Assembly (NCBI RefSeq): GCF_012910705.2
Contig: NZ_WTVG02000038.1
Location: 1-64,000, forward strand
Direction: 5' to 3'
DNA from: Aromatoleum anaerobium
Lineage (GTDB): Bacteria; Pseudomonadota; Gammaproteobacteria; Burkholderiales; Rhodocyclaceae
DNA length: 64,000 nt
Shown: positions 11,410 through 15,293 of the stretch, piece after piece
Layout: every line of letters begins with the position of its first letter
Position numbering within the stretch: position 1 is the first letter of the stretch
Notes under the pieces: generated by a model
Database searches by the model: none
Seen by the model: the letters and a program-made list of their open reading frames with translations, nothing else
What the model was told of the DNA's origin: nothing
Position numbers and translations under genes: made by a program

Positions 11410-11814
11410 TCAGCCGCGCCAAACGTTGAACGCGGTGTAGCCGACCCACGCCATCAGCAGCGAACCGGCGACATGGACGAGCGTGTGCAGCGCGAGCCAG
11501 CCCCATTCGCCGCGCTGCATCAGATGCAGGGACTCGGCAGCGAACGTCGAAAAAGTCGTCAGCCCGCCGAGGAAGCCGGTCGTCAGCAGCAGCCTGAGCG
11601 CCGGCGGCATCTCGGGCACCGCGTGAATCCACGCCAGCGTGCCGCCCATCAGCAGGCCACCGAGCAGGTTCGCCGCGAGGGTGCCGAACGGAATGGCGAG
11701 AAACAGCGGATTGAGCAGCAATCCGAGCCCCCAGCGCAGCCAGGCGCCCACCGCCGCGCCGGCACCGACCGCGACGAACGCCGACACCGTCACCGGCGAC
11801 GTCATCGCACCCAT
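11410..11814 (-). CDS. crcB: fluoride ion exporter CrcB/Fluc
   Basis: Small dimeric membrane channel that expels fluoride. The 134-residue product has four hydrophobic segments and the family motifs NLLGGLLMGG (about 49-58) and GFLGGLTTFSTFAAE (about 79-93). ATG at 11812-11814 or at 11803-11805 are both possible. No fluoride riboswitch could be recognised upstream. The IS110-family element begins about 80 bases upstream and has pushed any more distant promoter 1.5 kb away, so expression may be altered. Confidence 0.93.
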   Translation of the reverse strand: MGAMTSPVTVSAFVAVGAGAAVGAWLRWGLGLLLNPLFLAIPFGTLAANLLGGLLMGGTLAWIHAVPEMPPALRLLLTTGFLGGLTTFSTFAAESLHLMQRGEWGWLALHTLVHVAGSLLMAWVGYTAFNVWRG

Positions 11815-11899
11815 CCATCCCGCATCGCCTCTTCGCCCGTCGGAACGGACGTCCGGGAGATCGGTACCGGCTCGATCGGCTCACCTGCCATGACATTTA

Positions 11900-11914
11900 T
11901 ATGGACGCCTCCCG
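11900..11914 (+). repeat. IS110/IS1111 subterminal inverted repeat
   Basis: TATGGACGCCTCCCG, a perfect 15-bp match to the reverse complement of 13395-13409. This copy is on the 3' side of the transposase gene. Confidence 0.88.
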
Positions 11915-12169
11915 TTTGCAAGGACGATTTGGTGTGTTGGGACAGATAGGCTGCAGTTTTATATCCGGCCTGTGGTGCAGGCCGATGCCTGCTGGCCCTG
12001 ATGGAATCCGCTGACCCGCGCCTCATTTCCTTTGGTGGACTCGAAGTCCGGAACGTCATACAGGCTTGGCGGGTCACGGTCTGACCTGTTTGCCATCACA
12101 CGTTTTCGTACCTTCGCAACCTTTACGGCGGCCACTCCTTTCTTCAAAGTGGTTGATTGACGTTGTGCT
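11915..12169 (-). ncRNA. candidate bridge/seek guide RNA region of the IS110 element
   Basis: This 255-bp non-coding stretch lies between the transposase stop and the inverted repeat. In the IS1111 subgroup the guide RNA is reported to be encoded on this side. It is rich in hairpins: GGCCTG/CAGGCC (11967-11972 with 11978-11983, 5-base loop) and GGACT/AGTCC (12037-12041 with 12045-12049, 3-base loop). CATTTCCT at 12024-12031 equals the right flank at 13411-13418, and TGCCATCACA at 12091-12100 differs by one base from the left flank at 11886-11895. Matches of this length can arise by chance. The RNA itself is an inference. Confidence 0.4.
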
Positions 12170-13201
12170 TCAGCCCTGCGCGGGTTGAGTCACAAACTCC
12201 CTTTGGTACGTCCGTTCATGAGCGAGAATCGCCCAGATCGTCCGCGCCATCTTGTTGGCCAAGGCCACCACCGCGACGTTGAGCGGTCGGCGCTGGCGTA
12301 ATGCAGTCACCCACGGGCCCGGATCCTTCGCGTTCGTAAGAACCGCCCGGGCGCCGTGGATGAGCAGCGTTCGAAGGTAGGTGTCGCCGCGCTTGCTGAT
12401 GCCAAGCAATTTGACTCGCCCGCCCGTGCCGGTCTGTCGTGGCACCAGTCCGGCGAAAGCGGCAAACTCCCGCCCGGACTTGAAGGTCTTGGCATCGCCC
12501 ATGATGGCGACGGCGGCGGTCGCGGTCAGCGGCCCGACGCCAGGAATCTCGGCAATGCGCCGGCAGGCAGCGTCTTGCTTGAGCCAGTCTTTGATGCGCC
12601 GCTCGATAGTGGCGATCTCGGCATCCATCTTCTCGATGCGCGCCCACTGCTCGCGCAGGGTGTCGATGACGATCGCCGGCAGGCGATCCGACAGTCGTGC
12701 CAGGGCTTGCGTGATGCCCTTCCGGATGGCGGCTTTTCCCTGCGCCATGACTTCGCCGTATTCGGTGAGCAATCCCCGCAGGCCGTTGATCTGGGCGGTG
12801 CGGAACTTGACCAGCTGGCTGCGCATGCGATGCAGCGCCAGGATCGCTTGCTGTTCCTCGCTCTTGATGGCGACGGCCTTGACGTGCGGCTGCTGTACCG
12901 CCGTCCAGATCGCCCGCGCATCGTGGCGGTCATTCTTGTTGCCCGTCACGAAGGGCTTGACCGCCTTGCCAGGAAGCAGCTTGACCTGGTGCCCCAGCGC
13001 CGTGAGGCTCCGCGCCCAGTGCTGCGCGCCGCCGCAGGCCTCCATGCCGATCAGGCAGGGCTGCCGGTTGGCGAAGTGCTCGAGAAACTTCTCGCGCTTG
13101 AGCGGCAAACTCACGATCTCTCCCGTCTCCATGTCGATCCAGTGCAACTGGAACACCCGCTTGGCAATGTCGATGCCGACGACCGTTTTGCTATCATTCA
13201 T
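12170..13201 (-). CDS. IS110-family DEDD transposase
   Basis: Recombinase of 343 residues with a RuvC-like N-terminal domain (DEDD_Tnp_IS110) and a C-terminal Transposase_20 domain. Candidate acidic catalytic residues are D11 (GIDIAKR), E54 (GMEACGG), D91 and D94 (NDRHDARAIW). The helix-hairpin-helix-like segment IPGVGPLTATAAVAIMGD starts the C-terminal domain. The segment often read H-S-S/T-G-G in relatives reads TGTGG here; whether the catalytic Ser lies there is uncertain. Start ATG at 13199-13201; the longer frame upstream is not family-like. Confidence 0.93.
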   Translation of the reverse strand: MNDSKTVVGIDIAKRVFQLHWIDMETGEIVSLPLKREKFLEHFANRQPCLIGMEACGGAQHWARSLTALGHQVKLLPGKAVKPFVTGNKNDRHDARAIWTAVQQPHVKAVAIKSEEQQAILALHRMRSQLVKFRTAQINGLRGLLTEYGEVMAQGKAAIRKGITQALARLSDRLPAIVIDTLREQWARIEKMDAEIATIERRIKDWLKQDAACRRIAEIPGVGPLTATAAVAIMGDAKTFKSGREFAAFAGLVPRQTGTGGRVKLLGISKRGDTYLRTLLIHGARAVLTNAKDPGPWVTALRQRRPLNVAVVALANKMARTIWAILAHERTYQREFVTQPAQG

Positions 13202-13394
13202 CTCGGACCCTCCGGTTTGCCTGTGAAGATCTTCGTATCTTCCACCTTGGCACTTTGATGCCGTCGGCCCGTGAGGGTCCACCTCTCGATCGACCACCCC
13301 CGCAGAGTTATCCACGGCGCCGGGCGCCGCAGGTCCCTCTATCACCGCAGGCGACCGGCGCGGTGGGTAACTCGTGTTCAGCGCTCACGGGGGG
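13202..13394. other. non-coding 5' segment of IS110 element
   Basis: About 193 bases between the transposase start and the inverted repeat at 13395. No open frame fits a protein family. It contains GGCGCCGGGCGCC-type self-complementary DNA near 13315-13329. In IS110-proper elements the guide RNA lies on this side, so it is the alternative location if the element is not IS1111-like. Confidence 0.4.
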
Positions 13395-13409
13395 CGGGAG
13401 GCGTCCATA
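13395..13409 (-). repeat. IS110/IS1111 subterminal inverted repeat
   Basis: Reverse complement of 11900-11914 over 15 bases. This copy is on the 5' side of the transposase gene, one base inside the shared CATTT. Confidence 0.88.
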
Positions 13410-13438
13410 CCATTTCCTGTACGTGCGAAACCGCCGGC

Positions 13439-13444
13439 ATTCTA
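13439..13444 (-). promoter_or_regulatory. possible -10 box facing the IS110 element (former crcB side)
   Basis: TAGAAT on the minus strand, 24 bases outside the element. No convincing -35 box sits 16-18 bases upstream. Before the insertion this would have faced crcB; now it points into the IS and could contribute to transposase transcription. Confidence 0.25.
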
Positions 13445-13485
13445 CCGGACGCGACCGGCGCAACGCCCTGCCACCTGCCGCGGCG

Positions 13486-13515
13486 TTCGATTTCAACCGG
13501 GGGCAGCGGTAGAAT
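13486..13515 (+). promoter_or_regulatory. putative glnS promoter
   Basis: TTCGAT (13486-13491) and TAGAAT (13510-13515) are separated by 18 bases. This is 45 bases upstream of the glnS GTG. The -10 is good and the -35 weak. Confidence 0.4.
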
Positions 13516-13559
13516 CGCCGGCTTCCGGGCATTGCACCCATTCTTCGAGGCTTCACCCC

Positions 13560-15293
<1,734 letters not shown>

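Follow-up and report, generated by a model that had tools for sequence, protein, structure and literature searches.

How an insertion sequence came to lie between crcB and glnS in the 64,000-nt stretch of Aromatoleum anaerobium DNA analysed here (the window), and what selected its landing site, were the questions raised by this locus.

An IS1111-group element with near-identical copies and precise empty sites

The insertion is a real IS1111-group insertion sequence of the IS110 family, close to ISEc11 and IS884, which occupies 11898–13415 with its transposase on the minus strand and measures 1518 bp when the core base is counted once. Its DEDD transposase gene (12170–13201, minus strand, 343 aa) matches Pfam PF01548 (DEDD_Tnp_IS110) and PF02371 (Transposase_20), both above the cut-offs, and the protein thus has the DEDD (RuvC-like) N-terminal domain and the Transposase_20 domain of IS1111 members; this bears out the initial annotation of an IS1111-like IS110 element. 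The perfect 15-bp inverted repeats described there as lying just inside the ends were located at 11900–11914 (plus strand, transposase-downstream end) and 13395–13409 (minus strand, transposase-upstream end), and their length is within the 7–17 bp reported for subterminal repeats of the group, which are usually of 11–13 bp according to excerpts of two papers (PMC11187229, PMC11208160). Terminal extensions of 6 and 3 bp, with the core base counted on each side, lie outside the repeats and show the asymmetry of IS1111 elements, given in excerpts of PMC11187229 as 7 (occasionally 6) bp on the left and 3 bp on the right. The noncoding region is longer downstream of the transposase than upstream (272 bp vs 214 bp), and it is the downstream region that holds a conserved RNA, in which the top-strand complement is 5′ of the bottom-strand complement, in the order published for IS1111 seekRNAs (PMC11187229, in excerpts). 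The IS900/IS110-group combination of an upstream RNA and no long subterminal inverted repeats was not found, the RNA lying downstream and the 15-bp repeat being present; the window element is like IS900 in its target only, namely insertion between a Shine-Dalgarno sequence and a start codon.

The genome carries four full copies, which over 1522 bp (window 11897–13418) are identical save for one base, 12977, in one copy. When 16 further genomes of the genus were searched, two (G007, G011) proved to have full-length copies with 89–90% DNA identity. At site 1, between crcB and glnS, all three relative loci above the alignment cut-off (L114–L116) are uninterrupted, the remaining 13 of 16 being below it. 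Uninterrupted sequence was likewise found in 4/4 loci aligned for site 2, before a small cupin-like gene (further, weaker matches were left out of the alignment), and in 5/5 loci tried for site 3, before a thiolase gene; for site 4 an empty site was sought in relatives and none was found, no relative being usable. Near-identity of the four copies could in principle also arise if they had spread inside larger duplicated segments and not by transposition. There is practically no chance of this, as the 70-bp flanks of the copies are unrelated except for a short target, and as relatives without the insert and with precise junctions contradict a segmental duplication at sites 1–3. The further copies and the uninterrupted crcB–glnS region, by which the initial annotation had proposed to check the element, are both present, and the element is not refuted by the first condition set there, a lack of any empty site. 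The three empty relatives at site 1 read CATGACATTCCT, and thus the insert is 1518 bp (11898–13415); deletion of 1517 bp, from which the ancestral site was to be rebuilt, leaves one extra T.

The shared core and the CATTT pentamer

A CATTT pentamer at both edges had been put forward as the recombination core. It indeed occurs at 11894–11898 and 13411–13415 of the window copy, and the right-hand CATTTCCT is found in all four copies of the genome. However, the left-hand CATTT is present in just one of these four, the other three having GTTTTA, AGTTA and TGCTTA before TATGG; the right-hand one is partly element and partly core; the empty site reads CATTCCT, not CATTTCCT, in all three aligned relatives; and other elements have G, T or C as the core. 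It is therefore very improbable that the pentamer is the core and the main determinant of site choice, and we rejected it: the CATTT "core" is mostly coincidence. The copies do not have their boundaries at CATTT, which refutes this core and leaves the element itself standing.

Ends were found in 64 of 80 loci plus L001–L005, whereas 16 loci were dropped, giving 69 element copies. In the window the core base lies at 11897 (first copy) and 13415 (second copy) and is a plus-strand T, hence A on the strand of the transposase; the base at these positions is the same at both ends in 61 of the 69 copies. In the remaining eight the extension is 1 nt longer and the core bases agree in that register; A, G, T and C are all found as core across the 69. 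At site 3 a G precedes the core, which leaves only the last base demonstrably common. The demonstrably shared core is a single base, T on the plus strand, although the core may comprise two bases, as in IS621. At site 2, the two bases read TT when filled (L002) and CT in four relatives (L141–L144), with only the last base demonstrably shared; T versus C before the core might stem from a two-base core in which the donor's base prevailed, or from a subsequent change.

The target is the gap between a Shine-Dalgarno sequence and a start codon

Copy comparison and the empty sites gave the target CATGAC-N(2–4)-T-CCT, which reads, on the transposase strand, as a Shine-Dalgarno sequence and, after a spacer of varying length, a start codon. 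The Shine-Dalgarno side (CCT; AGG on the transposase strand) is at 13416–13418 and the start-codon side (CATGACAT; ATGTCATG on the transposase strand) at 11889–11896, both read on the minus strand. The four sites of the genome are AGG-A-(ATGTC, AACGTC, CTGTC, GCACGTC)-ATG on the transposase strand, with core-to-ATG distances of 5, 6, 5 and 7 nt. The initial annotation was right in spirit, then, in claiming an identified target, although this is the Shine-Dalgarno/start-codon gap and not CATTT. At the other three sites the ATG opens reading frames for a protein of 110 aa whose cupin match falls slightly short of the Pfam cut-off, a thiolase of 402 aa and a protein of 89 aa that belongs to no family, while that of the window copy opens just a 29-codon frame overlapping the start of crcB, which counts against the start-site model. 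The genome has a further 38 AGGAN(1–4)GTCATG sites, compared with 18 for the reversed pattern.

A conserved seekRNA with two target guides and a donor guide

A putative seekRNA/bridge-RNA gene, its extent defined by conservation, lies downstream of the transposase at 11948–12088 (minus strand). The predicted consensus structure, from an alignment of the window sequence with 38 of 41 distinct-guide elements (39 sequences; L039, L092 and L110 were left out, and loci missed by the distinct-guide search pattern were not included), has 29 pairs, with 99.4% of cells paired and two-sided changes in 17 pairs. None of 500 shuffles reached any of five measures, and slid versions of the structure were 29–42% paired, a comparison biased towards the consensus, for which this very alignment was the source. 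Folded by itself, the window RNA scores 2.8 sd better than its shuffles (2/200 as good). An Rfam search of 11700–13700 gave six weak matches, none at the gathering score.

The first domain has a hairpin within a large internal loop, whose 5′ side (guide 1) and 3′ side (guide 2) are, by eye, the most variable parts of the domain. In the window, guide 1 (TATGACGTTCC, 12050–12060) is separated from guide 2 (AAAGGAA, 12027–12033) by the hairpin GGACTTCGAGTCC (12037–12049), which has two-sided changes in 3 of 4 modelled pairs. The second domain houses the donor guide, ATATAA in the window (11959–11964), which is found as GGATATAR in most elements; it repeats the ATATAA at the element's own terminus, core included, and all of these features are on the minus strand. 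Guide 1 can pair with the spacer and the AT of the start codon, and guide 2 is identical to the Shine-Dalgarno flank plus the core.

ISEc11, for which excerpts of Siddiquee et al. 2024 (PMC11187229) report an experimentally shown seekRNA and the target GTGAAAATACTG, served as the positive control. Its transposase shares 60.7% aa identity with that of the window element, and both have CCTG, guide 1, hairpin, guide 2 and donor guide in this order, with the RNA downstream and the top-strand guide first. Read by the same layout, ISEc11 has guide 1 AACAGTATTT and a guide 2 ending in GTGAAA, and joining guide 2 (GTGAAA) to the reverse-complemented guide 1 (AAATACTG) gives the published GTGAAAATACTG. 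The two systems differ in what they recognise, as far as those excerpts go: GTGAAAATACTG for ISEc11, and Shine-Dalgarno/ATG gaps, each with its own spacer sequence, for the window element and its nearest relatives. IS884 of Cupriavidus necator, the closest element named in plasmid annotation, has 70% aa identity and shares both its ends and its seekRNA layout with the window element; it differs in that its copy on pHG1, the one examined, is inserted at ATTACCCC and not at a start codon.

A long imperfect hairpin was also seen at 13305–13373, in the 5′ leader that separates the element's end from its transposase, with GC-rich, GTTATCCAC-like arms (13305–13328 and 13350–13373) that are 88% complementary. 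Because similar palindromes (73–77% identity) occur in L018–L020, in other members of the family, with no IS110 transposase match in the 1.6–3.1 kb fetched and with L018 and L019 situated at contig ends, this hairpin is apparently not element-specific. Three genomes (L012, L013, L028) retain a remnant, 86% identical over 81 bp, of the 3′ end and seekRNA of a related element; an IS110 transposase match was sought and not found for L012 and L013, and by eye the reading frame beside the remnant resembles the end of a different transposase.

A probable circle aimed by a guide RNA

It is highly likely that this IS1111-group element moves as a circle and is aimed to the Shine-Dalgarno/ATG gap by the seekRNA encoded downstream of its transposase. 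The boundaries, the empty sites, the conserved RNA structure, the guide-target and guide-donor matches and the start-site location are directly established; that the RNA is produced and binds, and that a circle forms, we infer from the DNA. Guide 1 (UAUGACGUU) would pair with the spacer and the AT of the start codon on the top strand (transposase orientation), guide 2 (AAAGGAA, Shine-Dalgarno plus core) would complement the bottom strand of the target, and the donor guide AUAUAA would complement the bottom strand of the element's own end. Strand exchange at the one-base (perhaps two-base) core would then place the element in the gap that separates the Shine-Dalgarno sequence from the ATG, in the same orientation as the reading frame. 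This model is alike to the IS621 bridge RNA, as described in excerpts of Durrant et al. 2024 (PMC11208160), in that one RNA has target and donor loops with the core within the pairings; IS621 differs, in the same excerpts, in belonging to the IS110 group, with an RNA that lies upstream of the recombinase, in the left end, and in having a two-base core.

The circle junction is predicted to read ...GTCCATATA-A-AATGGTATGGAC..., with a single core base, and to bring together a promoter-like site. A circular intermediate with a promoter at its junction, and an RNA that co-purifies with the transposase, are marks of the IS1111 group, and of these the promoter-like junction sequence was computed here. 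The −35-like TTGCAA at 11916–11921 (minus strand) meets the −10-like TAAAAT only once the ends join in the circle. Across the relatives the joined ends most often show TTGGCA or TTGCAA, 16–17 nt and TA-core-AAT. Scoring the best match over the same positions and spacings in real and shuffled junctions, we found a mean of 9.0 of 12 consensus matches for 54 distinct-guide elements vs 5.8 for shuffles, and a score of at least 9 in 34 of the 54 vs 1.4% of shuffles. Since the promoter-like site arises from joining the two ends, the promoter of an integrated copy is split. Landing behind a host promoter, directly past a Shine-Dalgarno sequence of the host and in the orientation of its gene, would put the transposase and the seekRNA on the host transcript, by which the integrated copy could be transcribed.

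Differing guides match their own landing sites across the clade

To ask more widely whether guides fit flanks, guides were parsed in all 69 element copies with known ends, 65 of which have enough 3′ flank (63 unique). Between guide 1 and the element's own 3′ flank, the mean longest Watson-Crick run was 6.17 in the 63 unique elements, compared with 3.20 (sd 0.12) after shuffling (0/2000 as high), and runs of single elements ranged from 3 to 9; with one element per distinct guide 1 (n=50) the means were 6.14 and 3.15. Guide 2, compared by identity with the own 5′ flank, gave 5.15 vs 2.97 shuffled (0/2000; 61 elements). In 68 of the 69 copies the donor 4-mer is identical to the last four letters of the element itself, the remaining one (L075) being unparsed, and this agreement extends to the rare forms ACAA, ACAT, ATAC, ATAT, AGAG and GTAG. 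These matches indicate that most of the examined relatives have differing guides, each matching its own landing site, and that targets are readable from sequence. Together with the family match and the covarying seekRNA, the agreement between guides and flanks gives in silico support to the structured guide RNA choosing donor and target that the initial annotation had expected.

Plasmid elements gave a similar picture. Among 19 loci fetched, 14 were parsed, three of which share one guide; L187, L195, L198, L202 and L205 were unparsed automatically, and all of these except L202 were read by eye. Guide 1 runs of at least 6 were found in 12 of the 14 and guide 2 runs of at least 5 also in 12, while a poor guide 1 in L197 and L204 and a short guide 2 in L188 and L189 count against the model. 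In the last two, which are IS884-like, guide 2 (AGTACG and AGGACG) matches the other element's 5′ flank and not its own.

The register between guide and core shows slack. One guide goes with varying core-to-target distances in 4 of the 8 shared-guide sets having at least two 3′ flanks: the own copies (5/6/5/7), L041/L042 (6/7), L050/L051 (6/7) and L077/L078 (off by one), while L052/L053/L060, L076/L079/L087, L083–L085 and L091/L095 are unshifted. A rigid guide-core register would not predict spacings of 5, 6, 5 and 7 nt from one guide, and these count against the model. In dozens of natural pairs the target is readable from some 20 nt of guide, which offers a ready-made natural table of guides and targets, including tolerated mismatches and the 1–2 nt guide-core slack, for a system near the proven ISEc11.

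Guides aimed at translation starts

A Shine-Dalgarno-like 5′ flank was found in 33 of the 65 element copies, and 27 of these 33 have an ATG-ORF 3–10 nt after the core, an ATG-ORF being defined as a frame no shorter than 50 codons, or no shorter than 15 if it is still open where the fetched DNA ends. When each distinct guide is counted once (n=52), 24 have such a flank, 20 of them with an ATG-ORF. Statistically, the background in the flanking DNA is 434/6091 Shine-Dalgarno-like sites (7.1%) and 3579/78028 sampled positions (4.6%), and copies without a Shine-Dalgarno-like 5′ flank have an ATG-ORF in 5 of 32. Because 33 of the 65 copies with enough flank are without an ATG-ORF, aiming at start sites is not a general property of the wider clade. 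Five plasmid copies have a Shine-Dalgarno-like guide 2 and an ATG (L194, L196, L197, L203, L205), and in two of them an annotated CDS starts exactly at the target ATG, namely stbB (L196) and a HEAT-repeat gene (L205); the L194 record is unannotated, and an incomplete gene table has no gene there for L197 and L203.

On a tree of 65 transposases, in which the three extra own-genome copies were left out and L107 was dropped as too short, the label "guide 2 Shine-Dalgarno plus guide 1 AT" falls on 30 rows and needs 9 changes vs 21.5 when shuffled (0/500), the quick method being unable to separate gain from loss. Eleven of the 12 rows around the window element are labelled, the exception being L040, whose guide 2 GGTGG equals its own GGTGG flank, and other subclades have different targets with guides to match (e.g. 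L052/L053/L056/L060).

The bias to start sites might instead come from selection or accessibility and not from the guide, if insertions elsewhere were lost or translated leaders were exposed. Shine-Dalgarno-like sites are common, and start sites are occupied by part of the clade only, with 9 changes needed on the tree, which fits such a bias. Nevertheless, the bias is written in the guides, with the Shine-Dalgarno sequence present in guide 2 and the AT of ATG in guide 1; elements at other targets have other letters at the same guide places; and the 36 distinct guides with an ATG in the flank fit their own flank, not each other's (5.86 vs 3.21, 0/2000). We therefore consider selection or accessibility acting in place of the guide unlikely. 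Selection may still be the reason why the guides keep this aim.

The targeting of translation-initiation signals by IS900 was reportedly described by Doran in 1997. For IS900 of Mycobacterium avium subsp. paratuberculosis, excerpts of PMC8141618 give a translation-initiation target with the motif CATGNNNNNNTCTCCTT, and place the element in the IS110 family without typical terminal inverted repeats, whereas the window element has its 15-bp repeat. The target shared by IS900 and the window clade looks convergent, and a testable reason for their converging on translation starts is that a host promoter could provide transcription to a copy with a split promoter. IS1111 elements are already known for RNA guidance, natural reprogramming and subterminal repeats; new, as far as the searched literature shows, is an IS1111 clade whose variable guides are often kept on translation starts. 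Among the matches listed, from a literature with subscription papers and preprints mostly outside it, no IS1111 element at Shine-Dalgarno/ATG sites was found.

The ATG within the repeat was considered as the start of a conserved leader peptide and rejected: its frame, of 7 codons in the window, varies in length from 5 to 373 codons without being conserved, and no claim is made for it. In parsed ends this ATG is a few bases past the target Shine-Dalgarno sequence, the end-finder having required it.

A sister element whose guide matches seekRNA genes

A second IS1111-type element (element B), with 42% aa identity to the window transposase, was met inside clade elements on plasmids of Paraburkholderia sabiae (L219/L223) and P. 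fungorum (L220), where both of these copies are situated in seekRNA genes. The reverse complement of its guide 1 ATATATCCGGC contains CCGGATATA, the conserved donor-guide stretch of the window clade. A search by the B transposase found four further copies with at least 96% identity on the P. sabiae plasmid (L224–L227), all four of which adjoin GGATATA within what look, by eye, like seekRNA genes of different host elements. A copy in another Paraburkholderia (L221, 87%) has the same B guide and a flank that is not clearly a seekRNA gene, which counts against such a preference, and a B relative from Xenorhabdus (L222, 65%) was unparsed. The B junction pattern was found in 5 of 299 genomes of one family, taken as Burkholderiaceae, at six places (L231–L236), with one match for the reversed control; as the search presupposes the junction, it shows spread and not preference. 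The B guide was read near three of the six places, once with a base change, and a longer junction pattern gave 0 matches in 399 genomes of the window's order. No IS1111 element aimed at seekRNA genes was found in the literature among the matches listed, again with subscription papers and preprints mostly outside.

We tentatively propose, at somewhat less than even chances, a wider reading in which the guides of the clade are kept aimed at a functional signal, the interval from ribosome-binding site to start codon, even as the intervening letters turn over, the copies ride host transcripts, and the guides of sister element B target the guide-RNA genes of its kin at their most conserved stretch, in a guide-against-guide conflict. 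In the seekRNA of the window, the 12-nt B site AGGCCGGATATA (11960–11971, minus strand) is intact.
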